Positions 823-63,276 of a stretch of DNA of 64,000 bases are shown piece after piece; position 1 is the first letter of the stretch, and each line of letters starts with the position of its first letter. The position numbers and the translations under genes are program-made. The DNA is from Flavobacterium muglaense (lineage in GTDB: Bacteria > Bacteroidota > Bacteroidia > Flavobacteriales > Flavobacteriaceae): contig NZ_JACRUK010000019.1 of NCBI RefSeq assembly GCF_014305155.1, forward strand, positions 1 through 64,000. The letters are read 5' to 3'. Under the pieces are notes generated by a model. That model made no database searches and was not told the origin of the DNA. It saw only the letters and a list, made by a program, of their open reading frames with translations.

Positions 823-903
823 AAGACATAATTTAATTGTAAAATTATACATAATATGTGCAACTGTGATGCCAAATTTATAAATTAGCAAAAAATAATT
901 TTT

Positions 904-27900: not shown

Positions 27901-28863
27901 AACATACATTAACATTAGCCGAAATCAACTCTGGTTCGGTGACCAATAGTGCTTCTGTGAATGCAAAAGATCCTTTTGGAAATACCATTACTGATATTTC
28001 TGATGATCCAAATAATGCTACCAATAGCGATTCAAATGGAGACGGTGATCCTGATGATGCAACCATTACACTCCTTTCGCAAAAGCCTTCTATTTCGATA
28101 GAAAAAACGTTTACTTTCAATGATGAAAACAAAGACGGTTTCCCTCAGTTGAATGAAACCATAACCTATGATTTTAAAGTAACCAATACCGGAAATGTTA
28201 CCCTTTCAAACATTACAGTAACGGATGCTTTAGTACCCGTTCTAGGTGGTCCAATTACGCTTGGTTCAAAACAAATGAACAATAATACTTTCTATGCTGA
28301 TTACAAAATCACTCAAGCAGATATTGATGCGGGTGCTATTGTAAATTCGGCTACAGTAAACGCTAAAGACACTAATGGCAACAATGTAACGGATACATCC
28401 GATGATCCTAACAATCCTACTAATACCGATGTTAACGGAGATGGAGAACCAGATGATGCAACTGTAACGCCATTGGCACGTAATCCAAAATTAACAATCA
28501 CTAAGAAAGGAACTTTTATAGACACCAACAAAGACGGCTTAGCACAAGCTGGAGAAACGATCAAATACCATTTTGATGTGAGCAACACTGGTAATGTTAC
28601 CATCAGCGGTATAACTGTTGACGATGCTCTTGTACCTGTAACTGGAGGTCCTTTAACCTTAGCTCCAAAAGCGAAAAACACAACCACATTTCAAGCCATC
28701 TATGTTTTAACTCAAGATGATGTAAACGCAGGTTTTGTAGTAAACTCCGCTACAGCAATTGGTCAAGATCCTTTTGGAAATACCATTACTGACAAATCAG
28801 ACGATCCTACAACTACTGCTAAAAATGATGACACGACTACTAGCCTAGCAAGAGAGTCGCAAT

Positions 28864-47375: not shown

Positions 47376-48581
47376 ATGTTAGAAAGCAGTTTTGGGCTGG
47401 TTTTCTTTTTGAAAATCCCCCGCAATGAAAGTAAAATTAGAACCATTTATCTTAGAATTACCGTAGATGGGATACCTAAAGAAACATCTACAAAACGTAA
47501 ATGGGATATCTCGCGTTGGGATCAAAAATTAGAAAGAGCAATCGGAACTAAAGAAGATGCGAAATCTATTAATATGTTCTTAGAGTCTCTTACACTAAAA
47601 ATCAATGAGTACAAAACCGAGAACATGTATAACGGAAAGCTTATTACTGCTCAGAAAGTTATGGATTACATCTTAGGGAAAAATGCTGCGAGAGTCAAAG
47701 TACTTGAAGAGTTCCAAAAGCATAATGATGAAATTACGGCTTTGCTGGGTAAAGGATACGCAAAAGGAACTCTCGACCGTTTTACTATCACTATTAATCA
47801 TTTACGAGCTTTTATCCGAATTAAATTTAATGCTGAAGATCTTGAATTTTCTGATTTGAATCTTGAATTTATAAAAGACTTTCAATTTTACTTACGTTCT
47901 GTTCGTAATTGCAGTAATAATACAACCTTAAAATATATCGCTAACTTTAAAAAAATAGTACTTCGTGCTATTGATAATGAAGTCATCCTGAAAGATCCAT
48001 TTAAGAACTTTAAAGCTAAAAAATCAAAAATTATAAAAAAACCACTTTCAACTCAGGAATTATATGAGTTAGAACGACATTACTTTAGTACTGATAGACT
48101 CAATGTAGTTAGAGACGTGTTCGTCTTCCAATGCTATACGGGATTAGCTTATATCGACGTATATCAATTAAAAAAGACTGATATCAAAGTGGGTGTCGAT
48201 AAACAATCGTGGATTATGTCTGAAAGACAAAAAACAGGCTCTGCAACTAATGTTCCTCTCCTACCGCAAGCCCTTAATATAATCGATAAATATAAGGATC
48301 ATCCTCTTTGTATACAACGTGGCACTGTCTTGCCTGTAGCCTCAAACCAAAAAATGAATGAATATTTGAAAGAGATTGCTTTACTGTGTGCTTTTCCTTT
48401 TACTCTCAACACACACATGGCTCGTAGGACCTTCGGAAGCACTGTTACGTTACAAAACAATGTACCGATAAATGTAGTGAAGGAAATGCTTGGACATTCC
48501 TCTGTGAAGCAGACAGAAGCCTATGCTATTACAGAACAAGTTACAGTTGGTAGGAAATGGCATTGCTTAATAAAAGGATAA
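47376..48581 (+). CDS. tyrosine recombinase (Bacteroidota integrase)
   Basis: 401 aa with an N-terminal arm-binding domain (RTIYLRITVDGIPKETSTKR), a SAM-like core-binding domain (about 105-215) and a catalytic domain. The catalytic set is seen as HMARRTFGS (His and Arg), LGHSSVKQTEAY (His and nucleophile Tyr) and a box-I segment CYTGLAYIDV, in which the usual first Arg is replaced, as in CTnDOT-type integrases. It probably integrates a mobile element next to tRNA-Tyr 290 bp upstream, but no repeated attachment site is seen. Full length and apparently intact. Confidence 0.9.
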   Translation: MLESSFGLVFFLKIPRNESKIRTIYLRITVDGIPKETSTKRKWDISRWDQKLERAIGTKEDAKSINMFLESLTLKINEYKTENMYNGKLITAQKVMDYILGKNAARVKVLEEFQKHNDEITALLGKGYAKGTLDRFTITINHLRAFIRIKFNAEDLEFSDLNLEFIKDFQFYLRSVRNCSNNTTLKYIANFKKIVLRAIDNEVILKDPFKNFKAKKSKIIKKPLSTQELYELERHYFSTDRLNVVRDVFVFQCYTGLAYIDVYQLKKTDIKVGVDKQSWIMSERQKTGSATNVPLLPQALNIIDKYKDHPLCIQRGTVLPVASNQKMNEYLKEIALLCAFPFTLNTHMARRTFGSTVTLQNNVPINVVKEMLGHSSVKQTEAYAITEQVTVGRKWHCLIKG

Positions 48582-48598
48582 ATAAAACGGATCCAGTA

Positions 48599-48682
48599 AT
48601 GTGTGAGTCAGATTTAGCCATCCTTACCAGATTAGAAAAGGAGATAAAAAAAATCAAACAGAAGTATCACTTATCTTGAAAT
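48599..48682 (+). other. small reading frame, possible remnant of the element
   Basis: A short frame MCESDLAILTRLEKEIKKIK... ends in TGA near 48682. The next frame continues LEITANTVYYLELEDNWN, so this may be the broken 3' end of a longer gene, perhaps of the integrated element. Low support. Confidence 0.3.
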
Positions 48683-48745
48683 CACAGCAAATACTGTTTA
48701 TTATCTAGAACTTGAAGACAACTGGAACATATTAATTCAAAACGC

Positions 48746-48779
48746 AAAAAGGTTGCTACCATCATGGAGCAACCTTTTT
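48746..48779. terminator. bidirectional terminator downstream of the integrase
   Basis: AAAAAGGTTGCT / AGCAACCTTTTT with a 10-nt loop. It overlaps the 3' end of the gene at 48762 on the minus strand. Confidence 0.8.
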
Positions 48780-49076
48780 GTCTTTCAGATAGACTTCACT
48801 TTTAACACCGGGATGATAGGAAGGAAAATATTCGATGTATCCTAAATTCTGTAATTCTTTGAAATACTTATGATAGGTTGGTATCGTATTAATATGCGAT
48901 AGTGCCATGATTTTACTTCGACTCACTTTAATATTTTGCATTTGTCCTTGCTTATAACCCAAACTAAGTATAGCAAGTAATAGCGCTAAATGCCAAACGT
49001 TTAATCGTGGATCTTCCATATAAATCAAAAAAGTATTCATCAAACTATCCTTACTACTTTTATTTGCATCTTTCAT
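48762..49076 (-). CDS. small helix-turn-helix-type protein of the element
   Basis: 104 aa. Centre SRSKIMALSHINTIPTYHKYFKELQNLGYIEYFPSYHPG looks like a winged-helix DNA-binding fold. Not assigned to a family. Its start overlaps the stop of the gene at 49060 on the same strand, so both are coupled. Possibly a regulator of the integrated element. Confidence 0.65.
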   Translation of the reverse strand: MKDANKSSKDSLMNTFLIYMEDPRLNVWHLALLLAILSLGYKQGQMQNIKVSRSKIMALSHINTIPTYHKYFKELQNLGYIEYFPSYHPGVKSEVYLKDKKVAP

Positions 49077-49338
49077 CTGTAAAAAGTTTAAGGAGATCCA
49101 CTTTATTATAGTAGTACGAGCCGAGTATTTTTTTATATCGTACTTTTTGGGTCACTCTTAAATTTTGAATTGATCCTGGAGACATATTCATTAATAGCCT
49201 CACTTGCTTGCTTTTTATCCAATCTTGCTCTACTATTTCATTCTGAACTTCCCTAGTCTGTGTCATTAAAGTACCGATATTGCCTAGTAGCTCCAAACCA
49301 AACTGCCTCAAATCTTCTTTTGTTACCATGTCATTCAT
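49060..49338 (-). CDS. helix-turn-helix (excisionase-like) protein of the element
   Basis: 92 aa. The second half IKSKQVRLLMNMSPGSIQNLRVTQK...GSYYYNKVDLLKLF resembles the HTH_17/excisionase-type MerR fold seen next to integrases of Bacteroidota conjugative elements. The N-terminal half is helical. It overlaps the downstream gene by a few codons. Probably controls excision or transfer; not proven. Confidence 0.75.
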   Translation of the reverse strand: MNDMVTKEDLRQFGLELLGNIGTLMTQTREVQNEIVEQDWIKSKQVRLLMNMSPGSIQNLRVTQKVRYKKILGSYYYNKVDLLKLFTDERCK

Positions 49339-50249
49339 AATTTCCTTTTATTAAAAATTTAAACAATACAACTCTCTCTTCCTTTTAGTTTTAACTAGCT
49401 ATTCACTTCACTTACAAAATCTCAAAAATAGAAATTACCGAATGATACAAAATGCAATTTAGCAAATAGCTTGATCGTAGTTCTTTTACCCTAAAGTATA
49501 GAGATAAAGTGAGTTCTTTATACATCTGATTAGCAATGGTATTATTTGTCCTCTAGTGGCAGTTCACATCAATTTATAGTACAACTTTAATCACCTCTTT
49601 TCAAAAATCAACTTTTAGAACAGTCAAATCTATACTTCGCTCAATTTCAACTTAACTCCAATCCTCAAAGCACATTTATACTTCCACTCTGCTCCAGCAT
49701 AAAAGAGCTTCTTCGAATAATTGATAAAAGAATCTTGAAAATTAAAGCCACTAACTACGTATAATTTTCAAGATCCTTTTACATGGCTTATATAGCCATA
49801 GCATTATATTGGAGAAATTGTGGATGGATAACATTACACAGTATTTGTTTGAAGAGTCACCTCTTTCTTTATAATTCCAAATAATCCTCTTTACAACCTT
49901 GCTTCCAGCCTATTACTATTCAAAAACCAGTATGCTAAATTGTTCCATTTCAAGAGCAAAGGTATTCTAGTGTTTTTAACGCAAAAAAAAGGTCAAGCCC
50001 TACGGATTTATCAAAAAAATCTCCACCCATGCGGGTAGTATTTATTTGATAAAACCTTGTTTTTGCTAAACACTAACCTTTTATGCTCTCGAAACGAAAC
50101 ATAGCATACTCCGGCTCTTTGGACGAATAAAAAAAATGTCAACAATGAAATTTAATACTATTTATAATGGAATTAAAGTGAAACAAAACAGCACCTCCTC
50201 TCATTACCGAATAAATTAATTTAAAAAATAATTCTAAAAAGTAAAAACT
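49339..50249. other. gene-poor AT-rich stretch in the element
   Basis: No convincing gene in 911 bp. A tiny frame at 50136-50219 (27 aa, starts MSTMKFNTIYNG) lies just before ssb and is of doubtful meaning. An imperfect hairpin lies at about 50010-50062: GGATTTATCAAAAAAATCTC and CACCC, ATGC loop, GGGTAG and TATTTATTTGATAAAACC. Confidence 0.5.
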
Positions 50250-50642
50250 ATGAACATCATCGGAAGATTAACAAGGGATGCGGAAGTACACACAACACCG
50301 CAGGAGAAAAAAGTAGTAAATTTTTCAGTAGCGATCAATGATAGTTACCGAAATAAGCAAGGCGAACGCATAGAGCAAACTAGCTATTTTGATTGCTCCT
50401 ATTGGATAAGTCCAAATGTTGCCAAAATACTCCTTAAAGGGGCTTTAGTAGAGCTAACAGGAAGAGTGAGCACAAGAGCCTGGACAGCTACTAACGGAGA
50501 ATTAAGATCGAGTTTAAATTTTCACACCTCGACTATTAAATTACACGGAGGTAGTAAGAAAATAGAACACCCGCAGGCTATCGTAAAACAAGAAAACACA
50601 AAGATCATCATAGAGGAGCCTGTAGATGACCTACCATTTTGA
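50250..50642 (+). CDS. ssb: single-stranded DNA-binding protein (element-borne type)
   Basis: 130 aa. Opens MNIIGRLTRDAEVHTTPQEK with an OB-fold segment NFSVAINDSYRNKQGE and YFDCSYW. The C-terminal tip is acidic, ending DDLPF, the contact used by partner proteins. The divergence and the location beside a recombinase suggest an element-borne copy, not the housekeeping one. It is followed 44 nt later by the DUF932 gene, probably in the same transcript. Confidence 0.9.
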   Translation: MNIIGRLTRDAEVHTTPQEKKVVNFSVAINDSYRNKQGERIEQTSYFDCSYWISPNVAKILLKGALVELTGRVSTRAWTATNGELRSSLNFHTSTIKLHGGSKKIEHPQAIVKQENTKIIIEEPVDDLPF

Positions 50643-50686
50643 CACTAAATACTTAATCATTTTTTTAACTCTTAAATTTTAATATC

Positions 50687-51754
50687 ATGGCACACAATTT
50701 AAATTTCAACGAAAGAACAGGACGCTATTCCTTTTTTAGCGTACAAGAAAAAGCTTGGCACGGTTTGGGTCAAATAGTAACGGACTATCCAACAAGCGCC
50801 GAAGCAATTAAGCACGCAGGACTTGATTATGAAGTGATAAAAAGTCCGCTTTATACCAAGGTGTCAAACATAATTGATCCTACTGACAATTTAGAGCTGG
50901 GCAATAACGAGGTCAACGTACCCAATTATTTTGCTACAATCCGCACGGATAACAATACCGTTTTGGGTGTAGTCGGTAAAGACTATCACATCGTACAAAA
51001 TCGTGAAGCATTTAGTTTCTTCGATTCCATTGTAGGTGGCACAGATGGGATTTTGTACGAGACTGCAGGCGCTTTAGGAAATGGAGAACGTATTTTTATT
51101 ACGGCTAAATTACCGGACTATATTCGTGTGGGCAATGGTGATGATGTTATAGAAAAATATATTTTCCTCACTACTTCACACGATGGTAGCGGAAGCATTA
51201 CGGCAGCGTTTACACCCGTTAGGATTGTTTGCCAAAATACACTAAACGCTTCGCTTCGCAATATGAGTAATGTAGTACGCATACGCCATACTTCAGGAGC
51301 TAAACAACGTTTGGAGAATGCACACAAAGTAATGGGATTAGCAAACGAATTTAGCAATCAATTAGAGGATATTTTTAATAATTGGGCAAAAGTGAAAGTG
51401 CACGATCATGAGGTTAAAAAAATGATCCAATTCGCACTATGCCCTAATAAAGAAACCTTACAACATCTTAAAGCTGGAAATGAGGACGAAATATCCACAG
51501 TTTTTAAGAATACCGTTGAAGATGCTTTTGCTTATGCTATGACAAGTGACTCACAACAAATGAACACGACAAAAGGAACTTTATTTGGAGCGTACAACGC
51601 TGTAACAGGCTACTACCAAAATGTACGTAGCTATAAGGATAGCGAAGCCAAACTACAATCCATTATTTTGGGTGGTACTGCACAATTAAAATCTCAAAAA
51701 GCTTTTGAAATCTGTACTAATTTTCAAAATATGGGTACAAACTGTTTTAATTAG
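50687..51754 (+). CDS. DUF932 phage/plasmid-like protein
   Basis: 355 aa. Recognised from the N-terminal HNLNFNERTGRYSFFSVQE, AWHGLGQIVTDYPTSAEA and the centre EKYIFLTTSHDGSGSITAAFTPVRIVCQN of the DUF932 (TIGR03299-type) family carried by phages and conjugative elements. Function unknown. Together with ssb and the recombinase it marks the integrated element. A terminator follows. Confidence 0.88.
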   Translation: MAHNLNFNERTGRYSFFSVQEKAWHGLGQIVTDYPTSAEAIKHAGLDYEVIKSPLYTKVSNIIDPTDNLELGNNEVNVPNYFATIRTDNNTVLGVVGKDYHIVQNREAFSFFDSIVGGTDGILYETAGALGNGERIFITAKLPDYIRVGNGDDVIEKYIFLTTSHDGSGSITAAFTPVRIVCQNTLNASLRNMSNVVRIRHTSGAKQRLENAHKVMGLANEFSNQLEDIFNNWAKVKVHDHEVKKMIQFALCPNKETLQHLKAGNEDEISTVFKNTVEDAFAYAMTSDSQQMNTTKGTLFGAYNAVTGYYQNVRSYKDSEAKLQSIILGGTAQLKSQKAFEICTNFQNMGTNCFN

Positions 51755-52105: not shown

Positions 52106-53821
52106 CTAATCTACGTTCATCATTATACTAAATGTACTCCCTAAACCTAGTTCACTTTCTACTGCTATTTTACCACCTTGGGCTTCAATGAATTCTTTAC
52201 TTATTGCTAATCCCAAACCTGTTCCAGATTTACTGCTTCCTGGAATTTGAAAATACTTATCAAACACTTTATACTTGTATCGAGAATCAATTCCTTTTCC
52301 GGTATCGATAACTTGAAATACAACTTGACTATCTGACTGACTTATTTGTACAACAATTTTACTTTCTGCATTAGAATAAGTAATGGCATTGGTTAAAAAA
52401 TTAACTAAGACCCAAGCCGTTTTTTCACTATCTGCAGTTATATATGGTAGATTTTCTTCCTCATCAATAACAATTTCAATTTGTTTATTTTCTGCTTGCA
52501 TTTTCACTGCCTCTACTGCCTGATGTACTATTAAATAAGGACTTGCTTTCTCAATTTTCAAATTTATCTTTCCAGTTTCTAATTGTGAAATATCAAGTAG
52601 CTCTCCCGTTAATTTAAGTAACCTTTGACTATCCTCTTTGATACTGTCTAAGAGTTGCTTTTGTTCCTTGTTAATTACTCCAGTTGCTTCTTTTTCTAGA
52701 AGTTGCAGACTAAATTTTATAGAGGATATTGGCGTTTTTAGTTCATGTGATACTGTCGCTATAAAGTTGGTTTTAGCAAAATCTAATTCTTTGAAAAAAG
52801 TAACGTTTCTCAGGATAATTACATTTCCAATAGCGATCTCTTTCTCCTCACCCGTTGGCGTAATCGTAATATCGACCACTTCTTTTTCGAAATAGCTTTC
52901 TCTATCATCTGCAAATATTTTTATTGGCAATATCTTTTCATTAGTTTCTAAGGTGATTAGCAATCGTATTAAATCATTATTTACAGCCAAATCGGCTACA
53001 TTTTTGCCTACAACATCACTTTGCTTTAAACCAAATATAGTCAGGGCTTCATCATTAACAAATAAGATACTATTGCTCGTGTCTAATCCTATAATAGGAT
53101 CATGCATTTTATTAATTAATGTTTCTAATCTTTTCTTTTCGAAAGACAAACTATACAAATTACTGTTGTTGTATTCCTGTAACTTTTCGGCCATGACATT
53201 GAAGGAACGAGCCAAGTCTCCAAATTCATTGTGTTGTAAAAAATGTACCCTTTCAGAGTAGTTCTTGTTGGCAATTTCTTGAATACTCGTTGTTAACTCC
53301 TTAATAGGATTAGCAATATTATTGGGTAAATTTACTAATAGATTAAAGGCTATCAGGAAACATAAAGTTCCCAGTATCAAGATATAAAAATTTGCTGTTT
53401 CAGCGGTTTTCTGAGCGATATCACTTTTTAGTTTTATTGCATCGGTATTGAGTTTCATGATTTGTAAAATCGCATCATGCATCTCAGCTTTAGCTCCAAC
53501 TGATCCATTGCCCTCTTTTAATGATTGAAAAGCTATTTTAAGCTTATTGGTGATATTCGCTTCGTTTTTCTCCGTAATATTCAGAAGCTGTAACTCTAAA
53601 TTTTGACCAAAAACCACAGTAGCATCTGTATTATTCTCGCCAATGTCCTCCATTGCCATTAACATATTCCTAGAATACTCTAAAGAATCATAATTGGCTT
53701 TAAGGATATTTTGAGTATCTTGTTTTATCGAATTAATATAATAGACACTAACAACTGAAAGTAAAATTATTAATGAAAATAATAAGCCTACACTTAAGTT
53801 TAATTTAGTTTTAATTCTCAT
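52106..53821 (-). CDS. membrane histidine kinase of the kdp locus (HAMP-PAS-HisKA)
   Basis: 571 aa. Transmembrane helices at about 8-29 and 144-165 flank a periplasmic sensor of about 110 residues. HAMP (166-218), PAS (about 230-340), HisKA with His359 in FIATVSHELKTP, and HATPase follow (VLVNFLTNAITYS, GLGLAISKEF). The start overlaps the stop of the kdpD-like gene, and the order suggests it is the separated kinase half of the Kdp sensor. The partner regulator is probably the NtrC-type gene at 61936. Confidence 0.88.
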   Translation of the reverse strand: MRIKTKLNLSVGLLFSLIILLSVVSVYYINSIKQDTQNILKANYDSLEYSRNMLMAMEDIGENNTDATVVFGQNLELQLLNITEKNEANITNKLKIAFQSLKEGNGSVGAKAEMHDAILQIMKLNTDAIKLKSDIAQKTAETANFYILILGTLCFLIAFNLLVNLPNNIANPIKELTTSIQEIANKNYSERVHFLQHNEFGDLARSFNVMAEKLQEYNNSNLYSLSFEKKRLETLINKMHDPIIGLDTSNSILFVNDEALTIFGLKQSDVVGKNVADLAVNNDLIRLLITLETNEKILPIKIFADDRESYFEKEVVDITITPTGEEKEIAIGNVIILRNVTFFKELDFAKTNFIATVSHELKTPISSIKFSLQLLEKEATGVINKEQKQLLDSIKEDSQRLLKLTGELLDISQLETGKINLKIEKASPYLIVHQAVEAVKMQAENKQIEIVIDEEENLPYITADSEKTAWVLVNFLTNAITYSNAESKIVVQISQSDSQVVFQVIDTGKGIDSRYKYKVFDKYFQIPGSSKSGTGLGLAISKEFIEAQGGKIAVESELGLGSTFSIMMNVD

Positions 53822-54948
53822 TAGGATAAAATTATAAGGTCAACATTTGATGAAGCTAACTTATTTAATAATTTATTAAATATATTTGAAGACAAAATTA
53901 CTTTAAATAAATTGAAATGTGGTTTTCCTATGCAAACCGTTGTAATCTGTTTTTGCTCTACTACTTCGAGAATAGCATCGGTAATTTTACCGTTTTCTTT
54001 TTTTATTACTTCGGCGCCTAATTGCGTTGCTAATTTTAAATTATTGATGAGATAGCGCTGTTTAGCAAGCGGAATTCTAACACTACTCTCTTTCGGTGTC
54101 TCCACATACAAAACCATCCACTTGCTGTTGTAATAACTTGCTAAACGCGCCGTTTTTCTAATCACAATTTTGGCCGTTTTGTCATTACTGCTAATACAGG
54201 CCAATAATTTATCTTGTCTAAAATTGGTGTTTTTAGGCTTTTCATGCTCTACTTTTCGTACTACTTGACTTGCTACTTCTTTTAGTGCTAATTCACGTAA
54301 TTGAAGAATTTGATCTGATTTAAAAAAATTAGTCAAAGCCATTTGTATTTTGTCTTCTGCATAAATTTTACCTTCCTTCAATCTGTTTATCAATTCCTCT
54401 GCGGTTAGATCAATATTGACTACTTCATCTGCCATACTTATAACATTATCAGGTACGCGCTCTTGTACTTCCACGCCCGTAATTTCCTTTACCACCGTAT
54501 TTAAACTCTCTATATGTTGAATATTTACAGCAGAAATAACGTTAATACCAGCTTCTAAAACTTCCAAAACATCCTGCCACCGTTTTTCATTTTTACTACC
54601 CTGAATATTAGAGTGTGCTAGTTCATCTACAATTACGACCTCTGGCCTCAGATTAATTATAGCTTGAACATCTAGTTCCTCTAGTTCTTTACCTTTATAG
54701 AAAATTGTTCGCCTTGGTATTATAGGCAAACCAGTTATTAATTCCTGAGTTTCTTTTCTAGCATGTGTCTCTATATAACCTATTTTAACATCAATCCCTT
54801 TTTTTAATAAAGTATGAGCTTCTTGTAGCATTCTATATGTTTTGCCTACTCCAGCACTCATACCAATATAGATTTTAAACTTTCCTTTCCTGGATTTTTG
54901 AATCAAATCCAAAAAATGCTGTGCGTTATTCTCCCTTTCTTGTTCCAT
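53821..54948 (-). CDS. kdpD: KdpD N-terminal sensor protein without kinase
   Basis: 375 aa. The KdpD N-domain has Walker A GMSAGVGKT (29-37) and the family segments YIETHARKET, VDELAHSN and VNIQHIESLN. A universal-stress-like domain fills the C-terminal third (NNLKLATQLGAEVIKKENG, VVEQKQITTVCIGKP). The four membrane helices, GAF and kinase parts of full KdpD are absent; the separate kinase at 52106 overlaps by one base. It may sense K+ or turgor and pass it by protein contact. Cytosolic. Confidence 0.93.
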   Translation of the reverse strand: MEQERENNAQHFLDLIQKSRKGKFKIYIGMSAGVGKTYRMLQEAHTLLKKGIDVKIGYIETHARKETQELITGLPIIPRRTIFYKGKELEELDVQAIINLRPEVVIVDELAHSNIQGSKNEKRWQDVLEVLEAGINVISAVNIQHIESLNTVVKEITGVEVQERVPDNVISMADEVVNIDLTAEELINRLKEGKIYAEDKIQMALTNFFKSDQILQLRELALKEVASQVVRKVEHEKPKNTNFRQDKLLACISSNDKTAKIVIRKTARLASYYNSKWMVLYVETPKESSVRIPLAKQRYLINNLKLATQLGAEVIKKENGKITDAILEVVEQKQITTVCIGKPHFNLFKVILSSNIFNKLLNKLASSNVDLIILS

Positions 54949-55082: not shown

Positions 55083-55643
55083 TTATTTAGTTATTTTGTC
55101 TAATTCGGAATTCAGCATCACAATGTTAATAGTTTTCGGTCCTAGACATGTTATTAATCTTTTTTCGGTATGGTCTACAATGATAGAATCTATAATTTTT
55201 GTCGAAATATTTCTAGCTTTTGCGATTCGTGCCACTTGCTTCTTGGCACAATCTATAGTAATGTTTGGACTCATAAACTTAGATTCGTTCAGGATAGATT
55301 GTGATTTTCCTTTTCTGTGCACCCTTATTTTTTTTTCAGAAACGAGTTTTTCTGTTACTACAGTGGGATAAAACAATTCGCAAGGCTTTGTTAGTTTACT
55401 GCTATCTAATGGCGCTACTTCGTCAAACTCTTCATCCAAAGTTGTACTCCAAAAATAAACATCAGCACTGAATTGCTTGTCTATTGTGGGAGTAGTAACT
55501 TCAAGTTTATAAATAGATTTAGCATCTCGTATTGATTGATCTGAATTGCTTTTCTGGCATCCCACAAATAGGACTAAACTTGCTAATCCAAAAAATGGAA
55601 TACTCAAAAATGTATTACTTCGTTTTAAAATTATTATTTTCAT
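55083..55643 (-). CDS. KdpC-like lipoprotein (diverged kdpC copy)
   Basis: 186 aa from the ATG at 55643 (an ATG at 55646 is an alternative). A hydrophobic start and LFVGC form a weak lipobox (Cys29). The C-terminal half aligns with the KdpC of the same operon: KQFSADVYFW versus QNFTADKYFW, SPNITIDCAKKQVARIAKAR versus DPNISVASTKVQITRVQKTR, and LGPKTINIVMLNSELDKI versus FGPTKVNVLKLNIALDQL. The GSGASN motif of KdpC is lost and the conserved DPN has become SPN. It could be an alternative or regulatory subunit held at the membrane by lipid. Confidence 0.72.
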   Translation of the reverse strand: MKIIILKRSNTFLSIPFFGLASLVLFVGCQKSNSDQSIRDAKSIYKLEVTTPTIDKQFSADVYFWSTTLDEEFDEVAPLDSSKLTKPCELFYPTVVTEKLVSEKKIRVHRKGKSQSILNESKFMSPNITIDCAKKQVARIAKARNISTKIIDSIIVDHTEKRLITCLGPKTINIVMLNSELDKITK

Positions 55644-55758: not shown

Positions 55759-56841
55759 TTAAAATTTTACTGCTAAGGATGTTGACAGAACCAAACTTTC
55801 ATTAGCAGTTCCTCCTCCTTGTTTAACGTAAATAGCGTCTTTGCTTGAGAAATTTTTCACTTCCATTCTCCAAACTAAATTGGAACCTATTCTATAATCT
55901 GAATTCAGGGATGCACCATAGGTTTCAAACCCATCTGGAGTTCCTGTTACGATAATTACTCCTTTTTTATCTTGATAATATTCTGCTCTTACTGCCAAAT
56001 TTAATTTGTCAGTTATCGCAATTTGTGTCATTACTGAAGCTCCATACCATTTGTTATATTGATCGCCTTGAGAGCTATTCTCTTCCCAACCTAAATCGAA
56101 TCCTGCCATCAATTTCACTTTACTTGTTAGCTCAAATTGTCCGTAAAAATCATGAAAATAACGCCTTTGACGTACATCGTCTGGTTTATCATTTCCAATA
56201 AAAGAACTGCTGTTTAAGGTTATTCTGTTTGTTGGCTTGTAAATCAATTGATGCCCAAAAGCAGGAGTGGTATTTCCATCTACACGCTGAATTCTTTGCC
56301 AACCATTTAAATACAATCCGGAAAATTCCCATTGGCCACTTGGAGAAACATAAGTGATTTTGGCTCCAGCCTCAAAATAGGGAGAGTTTTCAGCTATTAT
56401 ACTTCTAGTTAAGGTAATGCAGTCTGCACCTACAGCACTTTCAAAACCGATATGTGAAGGTAAAATCCCAGCGGTAATCCATAAATTTTGATTTTTTAAA
56501 ACTTTGAATCCTACGTTTGCTTCATAAACATTTTTTAAAACTCCAGGCTCAGCGGAATAATTTGCATTCATATAAGAACCAGCTGCTAAAGCCAAATTGG
56601 CGCGAACTAATTCGGTATCATAAATGGCTTTTAGTAATCCTAGATTTAAATTGACCTCATTGTTTCGGTTGTGACTGTAAATAAAGCTTGGACGTGTATT
56701 CGTTTCAGGATTATTGGCATCGTATTGGAAGTAGGTTTCAACATATCCTGAAAAGGTCATCGGATTTTTTTTCTCTTCTTGCGCAAAAGCAGCATTCGAT
56801 AAAAAAAGTGATAAGGCTAGAGTAACTATTTTAGTATTCAT
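55759..56841 (-). CDS. outer-membrane beta-barrel porin of the kdp operon
   Basis: 360 aa. Signal peptide (cleavage after SNAAFA, residue 20), then repeated amphipathic strands ending in Phe (LSTSLAVKF), typical for outer-membrane insertion. Many features resemble the OmpL/Bbp2-type porins of Bacteroidota. It lies between kdpC and the KdpC-like gene on the same strand, suggesting it supplies potassium access across the outer membrane when Kdp is induced; this role is inferred from context. Confidence 0.85.
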   Translation of the reverse strand: MNTKIVTLALSLFLSNAAFAQEEKKNPMTFSGYVETYFQYDANNPETNTRPSFIYSHNRNNEVNLNLGLLKAIYDTELVRANLALAAGSYMNANYSAEPGVLKNVYEANVGFKVLKNQNLWITAGILPSHIGFESAVGADCITLTRSIIAENSPYFEAGAKITYVSPSGQWEFSGLYLNGWQRIQRVDGNTTPAFGHQLIYKPTNRITLNSSSFIGNDKPDDVRQRRYFHDFYGQFELTSKVKLMAGFDLGWEENSSQGDQYNKWYGASVMTQIAITDKLNLAVRAEYYQDKKGVIIVTGTPDGFETYGASLNSDYRIGSNLVWRMEVKNFSSKDAIYVKQGGGTANESLVLSTSLAVKF

Positions 56842-56907
56842 TATAATTCATTTAGTTTGATTAAAAAAAAGGGAGACAGCGTTTCATCTCCCTGATTTTT
56901 CTATATT

Positions 56908-57468
56908 TTAATTCAGTTGGTCAAGCGCAATATTTAGTTTTAAAACATTCACTTTTGTAGGTCCAAAAATCCCTAGAAAGGGGTGTTCTGTATTTGCATC
57001 TATTAAAGAATTTAATTTTTCGCTACTAATTTTCCTCGTTTTTTGAACTCTTGTAATCTGTACTTTAGTACTTGCAACAGATATGTTAGGATCTAATCCG
57101 CTTGCACTAGCGGTCACTAAATCAATTGGAACATCTAATTTTTTTACCGTAGGATTCTTTAATAAAAAAGTATCAATACGACCTTGAACTACAGCTAAAT
57201 ATTCTTCGTTAGAAGCTCCTTTATTGCTAGCTCCTGAGCCAGCGGCGTTATAATCTACAGCAGATGGTCTTCCCCAAAAGTATTTGTCAGCCGTAAAATT
57301 TTGACCAATGTTCGAATATCCTTTGTTTTGTTTGTATACTACCACTTCACCTTCACCATTATTGGGCGCTAATTGAGCAACTGTCCAAACCGATAGAGGA
57401 TAAATTACCATGAAAAGTACCAGCAGGACAACAGTCATTCTGATTCCGATTATTAAATTATTTTTCAT
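56908..57468 (-). CDS. kdpC: potassium-transporting ATPase subunit C
   Basis: 186 aa from the ATG at 57468, 14 nt after the kdpB stop; the upstream part of the frame overlaps kdpB. One N-terminal transmembrane helix (residues about 7-29) and a periplasmic domain with NFTADKYFWGRPSA, GSGASN, DPNISV and FGPTKVNVLKLN. KdpC stabilises the complex and may help ATP binding to KdpB. Inner membrane, in operon with kdpA and kdpB. Confidence 0.95.
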   Translation of the reverse strand: MKNNLIIGIRMTVVLLVLFMVIYPLSVWTVAQLAPNNGEGEVVVYKQNKGYSNIGQNFTADKYFWGRPSAVDYNAAGSGASNKGASNEEYLAVVQGRIDTFLLKNPTVKKLDVPIDLVTASASGLDPNISVASTKVQITRVQKTRKISSEKLNSLIDANTEHPFLGIFGPTKVNVLKLNIALDQLN

Positions 57469-57481
57469 AATTTCTATTTTT

Positions 57482-59491
57482 TTAAATGAATAATGCAACA
57501 ACAATGTCAATCAATTTGATACCTATGAACGGTACGATAATTCCTCCTACACCAAAAAGTAACAGATTTCTTCTCAACAAAGCACTTGCGCCTATTGGTT
57601 TATAGCTCACGCCTTTTAAAGCTAACGGAATCAAGAACGGGATAATAATGGCATTGAAAATTACTGCCGAAAGTATGGCACTTTCAGGACTGTGTAAATG
57701 CATGATATTTAATCCTTGAAGCGCTGGAATTGCAGTAATGAATAATGCTGGAATGATGGCAAAATATTTGGCAACATCATTAGCAATACTAAAAGTAGTA
57801 AGCGTACCGCGGGTCATTAATAACTGTTTCCCTATTTCGACAATCTCAATTAACTTGGTTGGGTCATTGTCTAAATCAACCATATTTCCTGCCTCTTTTG
57901 CTGCTTGCGTTCCGCTGTTCATAGCAACACCAACATCTGCCTGAGCTAAAGCCGGTGCATCATTTGTACCATCTCCCATCATGGCAACTAATCTTCCTGC
58001 TAATTGTTCCTGTATGATGTAATTCATCTTATCTTCCGGTTTGGCTTCGGCAATAAAGTCATCAACCCCTGCTTTTTCGGCTATAAATTTTGCAGTCAAA
58101 GGATTATCTCCCGTCACCATGACCGTTTTTATACCCATTTTACGAAGGCGTTCAAATCGTTCAAACATTCCCGTTTTGATGATGTCTTGCAACTCAACAA
58201 CCCCAAGCGCCACTTCATTTTCAGAAACTACCAAGGGCGTTCCTCCGTTTTCGGCAATTATTTTCACTCGATCTAAAAGCTCCGTTGGAAAAGGATTTCC
58301 AGCATTTATGACTATACTTTTTATAGCATCAGTTGCACCCTTTCTAATTCGAATTCCGTCAAAATTCATTCCTGAACTTCTCGTCTCAGCTGTAAACTTG
58401 ATAAATTGTGCGTTATTTACTTGCAGTGTTAAAGGATCTATTTGTGCCAACTCTACAATTGATTTCCCTTCGGGAGTATCATCCGACATAGAACTTAAAA
58501 CCGCTGCTTTAACCAATTGCTCTTGTGAAATACCTGGAGCAGCATAGAACTGAGTTGCTTTCCTGTTACCAATGGTGATTGTTCCTGTTTTATCCAATAA
58601 CAATACATCAATATCTCCTGCAGTCTCCACCGCTCTCCCGCTTTTTGTAATTACATTGGCTCTTAAGGCTCTGTCCATACCTGCTATTCCAATCGCAGAT
58701 AATAACCCTCCAATGGTGGTTGGTATCAGGCAAACAAATAATGCGATAAATGAAGCTATCGTAATATTTACATTCGAATAATCAGCAAGTGGTTTTAGCG
58801 TAATACAAACGATTATAAAAACTAACGTAAATCCTGCAAGCAATATCGTTAAGGCAATTTCGTTTGGCGTTTTTTGTCGTGAGGCACCTTCTACCAAAGC
58901 AATCATTTTATCTAAAAAACTCTCCCCTGGCTCATTGGTTACTTCTACAACGATGCGGTCTGACAATACTTTCGTACCACCAGTAACTGAACTTTTATCT
59001 CCGCCTGACTCGCGGATCACTGGTGCCGATTCACCTGTTATGGCACTTTCATCTATTGTTGCGAGACCTTCTATGATTTCCCCATCCGTTGGGATGGTAT
59101 CACCCGCTTCACAAACAAACAAATCTCCTTTTTTCAGTTGCGAAGAAGAAATCTTTTCTCCTCTTTTTAAGGTTGCTGGTGTTTCTTCTCTTGTTTTTCG
59201 TAAACTGTCAGCTTGAGCTTTTCCTCGTGCTTCGGCAATCGCTTCTGCAAAATTGGCAAACAACAGTGTAAATAAAAGCACTAGGAATACAACAAAATTA
59301 TATCCAAAACTACCTTGCGATGTTTCACCCGTTAATGTCCAAATAGAGACAAATAGCATAACGATTGTCCCGATTTCTACCGTAAACATCACAGGATTTT
59401 TAAATAGTAACTTCGGATTTAATTTCACAAAAGACTGCACTAATGCTTGTTGCACAATCTCCTTTTGAAACAATGATTGATCTTTATTCAT
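57482..59491 (-). CDS. kdpB: potassium-transporting ATPase subunit B (P-type ATPase)
   Basis: 669 aa. Phosphorylation motif DKTGTIT with Asp300, actuator motif DESAITGES (TGES), and hinge [21 protein letters not shown]; seven membrane helices. Length and motifs match KdpB. It hydrolyses ATP to drive K+ uptake through KdpA. It starts 13 nt after the kdpA stop, in operon with kdpF, kdpA and kdpC. Confidence 0.97.
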
Positions 59492-59504: not shown

Positions 59505-61193
59505 TTAGTAGATAGTAAAATATTCAGCGATTGGTCCTAATGCTAGTACAGGAAAGAAAGCTAAGGCGGCTATAATTAAAATAACAGTTAAGGTCACTAC
59601 CCCAAATGTAGCCGTATCTGTCTTGAGCGTTCCATCATTTTCAGGTATGTATTTCTTTTGTGCTAAGAGTCCAGCAATGGCTACAGGCCCTATGATTGGC
59701 AGAAAGCGTGCAAGAAGCAGTACAATTCCAGTAGAAACATTCCACCAAAAAGTATTGTCTCCCAAACCTTCAAACCCACTTCCGTTATTTGCGGATGCAG
59801 ATGTGAATTCATATAACATTTCACTAAGTCCATGAAATCCAGGATTATTTAATGTTGCTGTGCCATATTGAGGCATAGCAGTCGTTATTGCAGTACCCAC
59901 TAATATTAAGAATGGGTGAATCAAAGCAATAATCATCGCTATCTTCATTTCTCTAGCTTCGACCTTCTTCCCAAAAAATTCAGGTGTCCTTCCAACCATT
60001 AATCCACTAATAAAGACCGCTAAAATGATGAAAATGAAGAAGTTCAAAATTCCGACTCCCACTCCACCATAAAAGCTATTAATCATCATTGCTAGTAATT
60101 CATTCATACCCGAAAGAGGCATCGTGCTGTCGTGCATTGAATTTACCGAACCTGTTGAAATTACTGTAGTTGCAATACTCCAGTATCCTGTTGCTGCTGC
60201 ACCAATTCTTGATTCTTTTCCTTCCATAGCACCCAGAGAGGTATCAATTCCCATTTTTTGAATCATAGGATTTCCTTGCATCTCTGCGATAACATTCGGA
60301 ATGGTTAATGCCAAAAATCCAACAGTCATCACGCCAAAAATCATCCACGAGAATTTCTTCCTTTTAATAAAATATCCGAAAGCGAATATCATTGCGAATG
60401 GAATTAACATTTGAGCAATCATTTCGACCATATTGGAGAAGTATGTTGGATTTTCAAAAGGATGTGCAGAATTGGTTCCAAAAAATCCGCCTCCATTCGT
60501 ACCTACATGTTTTATCGCTACAAAAGCAGCAGCAGGACCACGAGAAACATCTTGTGAACTGCCTTGTAAAGTAGTTATAGTATCTTTTCCCTCAAAAGTC
60601 ATTGGAGTTCCTTGAAAAGCTAGTAAAATTGCCACTACTAATGAAATCGGAAATAAGATACGTGTACATGATTTCATGAAGTACGTATAAAAATTACCTA
60701 ATTCAGTAGTGGTTTTATCTCGAAATGCTCTAAAAACTACTACTGCGGCGGCCATTCCAGTCGCGGCACTTACAAACTGTAAAAACATTAGATAGAACTG
60801 TCCTAGATAACTAAGTCCTGTTTCTCCTGAATAATGCTGCAGGTTACAATTCACTACAAAAGAAATCACGGTGTTGAAAGCTAAATCGGCGGACATACTT
60901 GGATTTCCATCTGGATTCATGGGTAAGCTTCCCATGGTCATCATGATGATCATTCCTATGAAAAACCATACTACATTAATCGTTAGTAAAGCTTTCATGT
61001 GCTGTTTCCAGTTCATTTCTTGCTCGGGATTAACACCACTCAATTTGAAAAGCACTTTTTCAACTGGATTGAATATAAAATCCAGCCACGTTTTCTCGAG
61101 TCCGTAAACCTTGGAAATATATTTTCCTAATGGAATAGCGAGTGCTAATGTGAGCAAAAACATCGCTATAATTCCAACTATTTCTGTATTCAT
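59505..61193 (-). CDS. kdpA: potassium-transporting ATPase subunit A (K+ channel-like)
   Basis: 562 aa with ten or so membrane segments. The selectivity-filter-like segments are visible as [34 protein letters not shown] and [12 protein letters not shown], conserved in KdpA. It binds and translocates K+ in the Kdp complex. It follows kdpF in the operon and is followed by kdpB. Confidence 0.97.
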
Positions 61194-61313: not shown

Positions 61314-61391
61314 TTAGAATTTTTCTGGCTTAAGTAATACGTAAACCATATAGCCAAAAACGGCTATTGCGACAATAAAAAGTGCGATCAT
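61314..61391 (-). CDS. kdpF: potassium-transporting ATPase subunit F
   Basis: 25 aa, MIALFIVAIAVFGYMVYVLL followed by KPEKF: one transmembrane helix then a short charged tail, the usual KdpF form. KdpF stabilises the KdpABC complex. Located 120 bp upstream of kdpA on the same strand and 4 bp after the stop of a second tiny membrane protein. Confidence 0.82.
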   Translation of the reverse strand: MIALFIVAIAVFGYMVYVLLKPEKF

Positions 61392-61395
61392 AATT

Positions 61396-61485
61396 TTAGA
61401 TTTTTTCAAAAAAGTCAATGGTTAAAAAACAAATGCCAAATAATAAAATGGCTAGTCCGAGCAATAAAATTGTTTCAGTCATCAT
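61396..61485 (-). CDS. 29-aa membrane microprotein before kdpF
   Basis: MMTETILLLGLAILLFGICF followed by LTIDFFEKI: one predicted transmembrane helix with a short acidic end. It ends 4 bp before the kdpF start, so the two are probably translated together. It does not match KdpF in sequence, but has its size and topology. A second ATG is at 61482. Unrecognised; expressed status unproven. Confidence 0.6.
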   Translation of the reverse strand: MMTETILLLGLAILLFGICFLTIDFFEKI

Positions 61486-61488
61486 AAT

Positions 61489-61773
61489 TTAATTGTAATT
61501 TGGTTGGTGAATTTGCTTTGCATATTCTGTTTTCAATACTTCGGGAAATAAATTTGAAATGGTGCAATGCTTCACTTTTAAGAAGGAAGCAATTGAATAG
61601 AGATACACATTGGCAATAATACCTCTTGTTTCTGTGCTACCTGTAACAAATAGTTTTTCAGCTATATTGAGGCATTTTTTTGCCCTTAGTACATTGCCAG
61701 CGATTAGTGCTTTTTTAGTAATCTCAGCAAATCGTTCTGCATTTTTGAATACATTAGTAATTTGATTTTTCAT
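61489..61773 (-). CDS. helical protein, first gene of the kdp operon
   Basis: 94 aa, all-helical with a TPR-like feel (FAEITKKALIAGNVLRAKKCLNIAEKLF) and a Cys near residue 71 (VKHCTISNLFPEVLKTEYAKQI). Not confidently assigned to a family; possibly a DUF7674-like protein, which I recall near such operons. It ends 3 bp before the microprotein start. No signal peptide, so cytosolic. Confidence 0.68.
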   Translation of the reverse strand: MKNQITNVFKNAERFAEITKKALIAGNVLRAKKCLNIAEKLFVTGSTETRGIIANVYLYSIASFLKVKHCTISNLFPEVLKTEYAKQIHQPNYN

Positions 61774-61935: not shown

Positions 61936-63276
61936 TTAAATTCTATACTCTTCTACCTTTCGATACAAAGTAGCAATTCCAATTTCTAACAACCTTGCAG
62001 CTTCCGCTTTATTGCCATTGGTGTAATTTAAAACTTTTTGGATGTGTAGTTTTTCCATGCTATTGATAGCAAAAGCGGATAGTACAGTATCACCACAATT
62101 CTCTTTATAATTTACAATTTCATAGGGTAAATCGGCGGCAGTTAAAGAATTCGAAGAAGCTAAAATCACTGCTCTTTCAATTACGTTTTTAAGCTCACGC
62201 ACATTTCCTGACCAAGAGTATTTTTCTAAGTGCTCCAAAAAATCGTCCTCAATTTCTAGTGCCTTCTTGTTTGTCGCAACTGAAAATTTTTCAACAAAAA
62301 AATTAGTAAGAGCACCTATGTCCTTGACACGCGCACGCAAAGGCGGCAAATTTATTTCGAAAATATTCAACCTATAATATAAATCAGAACGGAAACGATA
62401 GGCCTCACTTTCGGTTTTTAAATTTCGATTAGTAGCTGCAATTAATCTAAAATTGGATTTTTTAGGGGTACTATCTCCTACGGTAATATATTCATTGGTT
62501 TCTAATACTCTTAACAATTTTGCTTGCAAATCAAGAGGCATTTCTCCTATCTCGTCCAAGAATAAAGTACCGCCATTTGCTTCTTCGATAAAACCCTTTT
62601 TGTCTTTTACAGCTCCTGTAAAAGCACCTTGACGGTGGCCAAACAGTTCGCTTTCTAATAATTCTTTACTAAAAGTACTGCAGTTCAGCGCCACAAATGA
62701 TTTTCCTACGCGAGTACTATTTTCATGAATGGCTTGTGCAAAAACTTCTTTACCGGTTCCTGTCTCTCCAGTTAATAAAACGGTGGAATCAGTTATCGCA
62801 ACTTTTTTTGCCAATTCAATAACTTGTAACAATGCTTTAGACTTTCCTATGATAGCGTCAAAAGAATATTTATTCATAATGCGCTTTTCCAACTGCTTCA
62901 CTTTCTTCTGAAGTTGGACTTTTTCTAAAGCCTTGTATAAAAGCGGAATGATTTTATCATTGTCATCTCCTTTGACAATATAATCAAAAGCGCCATTTTT
63001 CATTGCTTGAACGCCGTCAGATATGTTTCCATAAGCGGTTAGCAAAATCACTTCTGTTAATGGGAAATTAGTTTTTATCTTTTGAAGAAAATCTACTCCA
63101 TTACCGTCAGGAAGTTTGACATCACATAGCACAACATCAATATCATTCTGCTCTAATTTTTTGAATCCCAACTTCAAATCCGGAGCTTCAACTACTTCAA
63201 ATCCCTCTGAATTTATTATCCTTGCGAGTAAACCACGAAGTTTTTCTTCGTCATCAATTATTAAAATATTTTTCAA
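61936..63276 (-). CDS. NtrC-type sigma-54-dependent response regulator
   Basis: 446 aa. Receiver domain with Asp52 (VLCDVKLPDGNG), AAA+ domain with Walker A GETGTGKE (170-177), the sigma-54 contact loop GAFTGA (217-222), Walker B GGTLFLDEIGEM, and a Fis-type HTH at the C-terminus (GNKAEAARLLEIGIATLYRKV). The usual KdpE is OmpR-type; here an NtrC-type regulator lies upstream of the kdp genes, probably phosphorylated by the kinase at 52106. A terminator divides it from the operon. Confidence 0.93.
   Translation of the reverse strand: MKNILIIDDEEKLRGLLARIINSEGFEVVEAPDLKLGFKKLEQNDIDVVLCDVKLPDGNGVDFLQKIKTNFPLTEVILLTAYGNISDGVQAMKNGAFDYIVKGDDNDKIIPLLYKALEKVQLQKKVKQLEKRIMNKYSFDAIIGKSKALLQVIELAKKVAITDSTVLLTGETGTGKEVFAQAIHENSTRVGKSFVALNCSTFSKELLESELFGHRQGAFTGAVKDKKGFIEEANGGTLFLDEIGEMPLDLQAKLLRVLETNEYITVGDSTPKKSNFRLIAATNRNLKTESEAYRFRSDLYYRLNIFEINLPPLRARVKDIGALTNFFVEKFSVATNKKALEIEDDFLEHLEKYSWSGNVRELKNVIERAVILASSNSLTAADLPYEIVNYKENCGDTVLSAFAINSMEKLHIQKVLNYTNGNKAEAARLLEIGIATLYRKVEEYRI

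Follow-up and report, generated by a model that had tools for sequence, protein, structure and literature searches.

The kdp locus of Flavobacterium muglaense encodes an intact KdpC and, two genes further on, a second protein that resembles it, raising the question of what this extra protein is, where it came from and whether it is still used. The window (the whole stretch of DNA analysed, 64,000 nucleotides) carries the locus on the minus strand in the order kdpF-kdpA-kdpB-kdpC-porin-KdpC-like gene-kdpD(N)-histidine kinase. KdpF (61314..61418; TIGR02115, 27.1 bits, cut-off 26.85), KdpA (59505..61193; TIGR00680, 639.6 bits, cut-off 387.7) and KdpB (57482..59491; TIGR01497, 1009 bits, cut-off 527.9) are followed by the true KdpC of 186 aa (56908..57468; PF02669 E-value 2.4e-65, with PRK14002 and TIGR00681 over their cut-offs), a BBP2/OmpL-like beta-barrel porin (55759..56841; PF07642 E-value 5.1e-100) and the KdpC-like gene (55083..55643). 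Beyond it lie a KdpD N-terminal sensor protein without kinase domains (53821..54948; PF02702 E-value 5.9e-93; NF038185 369 bits, below the cut-off of 550) and a separate HAMP-PAS-histidine kinase (52106..53821), the latter identified by profile match, as was a response regulator of the sigma-54 type that lies upstream of kdp (61936..63276, minus strand).

Several neighbouring features were recorded alongside. Of 78 Flavobacterium kdp stretches, 55 hold relatives of the regulator (61936-63276) and of the KdpD-N protein and separate kinase (52106-54948), all three together; some of the stretches stop short of the regulator. A DUF7674 protein of 94 aa (61489-61773) precedes kdpF and has a relative in 55 of the 78 stretches, and a 29-aa hydrophobic open-reading frame before kdpF (61396-61485) was matched by tblastn in 38 of the 82 kdp stretches, a set in which two genomes appear twice, and has no NCBIfam match. 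Beside the kdp locus, genes for a tyrosine recombinase, SSB and DUF932 (47376-51754) look like a mobile element.

The extra open-reading frame at 55083-55643 encodes 186 aa counted from its ATG; an alternative ATG one codon earlier is possible, compare the F. frigidarium open-reading frame. The initial annotation had read the product as a KdpC-like lipoprotein, and the KdpC profile does match it: PF02669 scores 53.7 bits (curated cut-off 24.1, E-value 2.9e-14) over residues 124-183, profile positions 123-182 of 182, which is the C-terminal third only. The similarity to the KdpC two genes upstream that had been noticed by eye was also borne out, with all four named motif blocks present in both proteins and a BLASTP alignment of 40/149 identities (27%, 55.5 bits, E-value 1e-14). 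TIGR00681 (cut-off 152.55) aligned with residues 53-183 at 57.7 bits, and the score fell below the model's own cut-off for all 11 KdpC models (TIGR00681/NCBIfam) that matched. A PDB sequence search using a profile from three copies (see below) returned KdpC chains only at E ≤ 0.01, the best at about 1e-11. Chance resemblance is ruled out by the PF02669, BLASTP and PDB sequence matches and, judged by its sequence, the 186-aa protein is a KdpC paralogue. A single-sequence search of the family with P0001 returned the window's own two proteins, the KdpC of G059, G062 and G398, and matches in G391, G410, G522 and G545 (E-value ~5e-4), whilst the same search against plasmids gave 156 records at E ≤ 0.01; among the 10 listed (24-29% identity) nine were annotated as KdpC and one had no annotation. 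Among the open-licence papers listed on KdpC or kdp operons, lipoproteins, Flavobacterium and F. frigidarium, we found no title or abstract start that describes such a protein.

At the N-terminus (residues 1-29, 55557..55643, minus strand) hydropathy shows a hydrophobic stretch, and the segment MKIIILKRSNTFLSIPFFGLASLVLFVGC satisfies the PROSITE rule PS51257 for lipoprotein signals and lipoboxes, applied to these N-termini as a pattern and not as a trained predictor. The probable signal peptide ends in a lipobox, LVLFVGC, with Cys29 as the putative lipidated residue. The F. frigidarium copy described below also satisfies the pattern and has the lipobox; the pattern is absent in the copy of Flavobacterium sp. 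TAB 87, in all of 29 KdpC (13 of them from Flavobacterium) and in all 79 KdpC sequences taken from the tree set (78 from Flavobacterium, one from UBA1946). In this last set each start is the first possible one, and the pattern could therefore be missed where an N-terminus has been made too long. The window and F. frigidarium copies carry Ala where KdpC has its conserved anchor Tyr (Y22 in E. coli), whilst TAB 87 keeps the Tyr in a KdpC-type hydrophobic anchor with a YP motif. From the pattern we predict export, lipidation at Cys29 and a C-terminal domain towards the periplasm, though the hydrophobic stretch may instead be an uncleaved anchor. Passages of a paper on surface-exposed lipoproteins give the export signals of Capnocytophaga and F. 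johnsoniae as C-X-K-(D/E)2-X and SDDFE (PMC5080379). The residues after Cys29 are QKSNSD and contain neither signal; as they lack the acidic pair, a periplasm-facing lipoprotein is favoured and would be the natural guess.

In the middle of the protein, alignment with KdpC shows that GSGASN is absent, as had been noticed at the outset, and that SGLDP, not mentioned then, is likewise cut down to its P; SGLDP and the S..SN motif are 90-100% conserved in 29 KdpC. Positions 67 to 128 include 17 conserved ones, of which two survive in the window copy (one S and the P of SGLDP) and seven in the TAB 87 copy. Over the whole middle part (37-128) conserved positions are not retained in excess of others in the window copy (5/22 vs. 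10/70, P = 0.27), and are so to a moderate degree in the TAB 87 copy (10/22 vs. 12/70, P = 0.009). The C-terminal domain (129-186) behaves differently: KdpC-conserved positions are kept at 9/13 vs. 10/45 others in the window copy (one-sided P = 0.0027) and at 12/14 vs. 8/44 in the TAB 87 copy (P = 9e-6), and the two copies are identical at 17/39 conserved vs. 36/142 other columns (P = 0.024). The PF02669-matched domain itself (residues 124-183, 55095..55274, minus strand) looks constrained by profile, model and conservation. As KdpC-conserved residues are preferentially retained there and not in the middle, the C-terminal domain is probably still used; so the copy has kept this domain and given up the middle.

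An AlphaFold model of the window copy built from seven sequences had a mean pLDDT of 50, with ten-residue blocks of 75-82 over residues 131-186 except for one at 57 (a dip at 161-170) and C-terminal elements E127-129, H130-144, H148-160, E171-173 and H174-185. A control model of the true KdpC at equal alignment depth reached a mean of only 57 (56-86 over residues 131-186), with its C-terminal elements in the same order and one helix split; as the control was only slightly better, the low N-terminal pLDDT of the window model is partly made by the method. In a Foldseek search of the PDB the best seven matches were all KdpC chains (E-values 2.5e-3 to 1.1e-2, TM-scores 0.28-0.34, rmsd 14-20 Å), the next match falling to an E-value of 2.5. 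In this proposed check of the protein's structure alone KdpC leads the matches, none of which reaches E = 0.001, and only the C-terminal domain is fairly confident. The model is consistent with a KdpC-like fold. The core reading, a KdpC homologue in which a probable lipoprotein signal has taken the place of the membrane N-terminus and GSGASN is lost, draws its support from profiles, alignment and comparative genomics, with which the fold search agrees weakly.

A survey of other Flavobacterium kdp operons had been proposed, and it shows that the extra gene is not a regular component of these operons. In a PF02669 search of 299 genus genomes, 121 had a match; in three of these a further KdpC match follows directly after the porin, namely in the window genome, F. 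frigidarium DSM 17623 and Flavobacterium sp. TAB 87. The F. frigidarium copy is 92% identical to the window copy and occupies the slot between porin and kdpD-like gene; the TAB 87 copy (L103:10001-10552) occupies the same slot at ~30% identity. A profile of the three copies recovered the same three from an overlapping sample of 398 genus genomes (164 with a match) at E ≤ 7.5e-96; among the matches listed the next had an E-value of 1e-26 and weaker, and the five next best were ordinary KdpC by place. Three further genomes (G005, G210 and G765) also had a second match to this profile, that of G005 being a weak frame with two stops. Among 299 family genomes KdpC was found in three and the extra copy only in the window genome; among 395 phylum genomes KdpC was found in 107, the other genomes with extra matches there being G827 and G900. 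Porin and kdpD-like gene were both present in 73 of the 78 Flavobacterium kdp stretches that were chosen, G116 supplying three of the 78; three of the porins were identified by weak matches (L072, L075 and L091). The spacer between them is 811 nt in the window, 808 and 813 nt in TAB 87 and F. frigidarium, and -3 to 304 nt in the other 71. Together, the genus surveys and spacer lengths rule out a general Flavobacterium kdp gene.

Other second matches were not counted as copies. Those of G827 and G900 are an insert-bearing KdpC in another kdp operon; the UBA1946 match (L104) is the ordinary KdpC of that genome; and the three matches of G116 (L057, L058 and L062) come from two kdp operons cut at contig ends and a short contig. 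Two other Bacteroidota genomes have a second kdp operon whose KdpC, of 338-344 aa, carries a long insert between the halves of the profile match (L116:7500-8534 and L117:2079-3095), and G116 appears to hold two kdp operons, both cut inside kdpC at contig ends.

A KdpB tree (quick method, 76 rows) places all three carriers in one nine-row group (support 100), within which the window and F. frigidarium pair (98), TAB 87 groups with G245 (93), and G116 (two rows), G717, G256 and G757 form the third branch (97). As the gene is present in two of the three branches, it either arose in their ancestor and was then lost, or spread. We found no gene remnants in the porin-kdpD spacers of G256, G245, G717, G757 and one G116 operon. 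Separately, inverted repeats around GCACAAAG ... CTTTGTGCC were seen by eye in the porin-kdpD spacers of L078, L080, L120, L123 and L062. A KdpC tree built from 48 of 82 rows unites the three copies in a single clade (98/88), on very long branches of 2.5-7.5 changes per site and with an odd letter make-up in two of them, for which reasons long-branch attraction is possible; placing the copies with the clade's own KdpC was not rejected (p-AU 0.418). From these comparisons the gene is a lineage-restricted KdpC paralogue, most simply a local kdpC duplicate. Because the TAB 87 copy has a KdpC-type anchor and no lipobox, lipidation is not the gene's defining trait, and the lipid anchor was probably acquired after the KdpC copy had arisen.

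A terminator-like hairpin with a T-run lies between kdpC and the porin (56870..56893, minus strand). The scan that found it gave nine sites in 12 kb vs. 5.8 in shuffles, and with a count this near to the shuffles it is therefore only recurrence in relatives that speaks for the hairpin: a similar paired stem occurs in the kdpC-porin spacers of F. frigidarium, TAB 87, G256, G245, G717 and G116, the extracted spacer of G757 being too short to judge. This stem was found in none of four more distant loci (L046, L119, L065 and L044), of which L065 and L044 carry other hairpins. The hairpin argues against simple equal co-expression with kdpABC, and it may separate the porin and KdpC-like gene from kdpFABC in expression. 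With the pattern used, no sigma-54 site was found upstream of kdp, its two matches in the window (859-874 and 28457-28472) being about the number due to chance; a Bacteroidota-type promoter pattern matched at 61902-61866, which means little at 13 matches in the window vs. 9.5 expected.

As to role, our leading reading, tentatively held at a probability of about 0.38, is that the protein is tethered by lipid in the periplasm and there assists or modulates the Kdp pump. The tether would replace KdpC's membrane helix, and the C-terminal domain would dock on the periplasmic side of the pump (the KdpA side, KdpC's seat), where it would act as an accessory or competing modulator, not as the stoichiometric KdpC, itself intact and encoded two genes upstream. 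Counting against this, near relatives of the window genome manage without the extra gene, and the hairpin ahead of the porin could reduce its expression. Decay is a live rival because dN/dS is high and divergence about as fast as in one flanking spacer: one of two kdpC copies would have drifted, nearly useless, and acquired a lipoprotein-like signal by a chance N-terminal change. Between the window and F. frigidarium, dN/dS is 0.53 for this gene vs. 0.04-0.22 for eight other kdp-locus genes; 15 of 21 differing codons are nonsynonymous vs. 15.5 expected under neutrality (P = 0.48), such that constraint on the whole gene is not seen, and substitutions are as frequent in the gene (24/561, 4.3%) as in the downstream spacer (6/133, 4.5%; upstream spacer 8/115, 7.0%). 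The long branches fit such drift, as does the middle part, where the window copy keeps no excess of conserved positions. However, both divergent copies retain the conserved C-terminal positions far more often than the remaining ones, and codons 60-186 show 5 of 11 changes nonsynonymous vs. 8.1 expected (P = 0.04). The frame is open in all three copies, even though identity between the most divergent two is down to 29.5%, and between the two lipobox copies it runs without an indel over 561 nt, the flanking spacers having 1 and 3 gapped positions. The lipobox itself is kept in both close copies despite 10 nonsynonymous (and no synonymous) changes in the first 59 codons. On this evidence we consider decay somewhat less likely than the modulator reading, though not by much.

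A signalling or outer-membrane adaptor, which would report K+ supply by using its lipid-anchored KdpC domain to connect the pump with the BBP2 porin or with the periplasmic portion of the separate kinase, would suit both the position of the gene on the same strand between the porin and the kdpD-like/kinase genes and the QKSNSD sequence, favouring as it does a periplasm-facing lipoprotein; it seems unlikely, as porin and kinase occur in 74 and 73 of the 78 Flavobacterium kdp stretches, nearly all without the gene, and neither needs it. Still more improbable is an alternative KdpC replacing the normal subunit in some pumps and altering affinity or stability. The TAB 87 copy, whose KdpC profile match spans almost its full length (residues 9-181, 93 bits) and which keeps the anchor Tyr, could still occupy KdpC's place, but in the window copy the Tyr and GSGASN are missing and SGLDP survives only as its P; this copy also falls below the cut-off of every KdpC model it matches, and is accompanied by a normal KdpC. 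A bolder form of the modulator reading is that KdpC has been cut in two, with the C-terminal domain alone, held by lipid, regulating the pump from the periplasm as a detachable unit, and with TAB 87 representing an intermediate state; we regard this as a rather unlikely speculation.

The reach of these observations is small, as three genomes were found to carry the gene. Their interest lies in KdpC itself, whose role is called unknown or elusive in passages of two structural papers (PMC9651954, PMC8385062) and uncertain in a third, which sets KdpC close to the selectivity filter of KdpA and compares it with beta subunits (PMC6255902); a passage of a fourth suggests a structural chaperone (PMC12629597). 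A paralogue without the conserved anchor and middle motifs but with the C-terminal domain would show the part of KdpC needed for pump contact, and would be a ready test protein for KdpC function. Were KdpC indeed cut in two, the copy would show which part suffices to bind the pump. The membrane anchor of TAB 87, set against the probable lipid anchor of the frigidarium branch, would also show a way for a pump subunit to become a separate periplasmic protein.

Among known systems, the beta subunits of the Na+/K+-ATPase and other P-type ATPases are described, in the passages at hand, as outward-facing accessories beside the ATPase, as KdpC is (PMC6255902, PMC10654040), a likeness by role only. 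The TAB 87 second copy shares with the window copy its slot, its clade and a partial loss of the middle motifs, and differs in its KdpC-type membrane anchor with the YP motif, its missing lipobox and its ~30% identity. KdpC (PF02669; TIGR00681) is the closest comparison: the window copy is alike in the ~60-residue C-terminal domain, in the near-invariant Q, R, R, G, N, L, N and L positions, in the YFW block and in its location in the kdp operon, whereas it has a probable lipoprotein signal in place of the membrane helix, lacks GSGASN and nearly all of SGLDP, scores below the equivalog cut-offs, and is additional to an intact KdpC.
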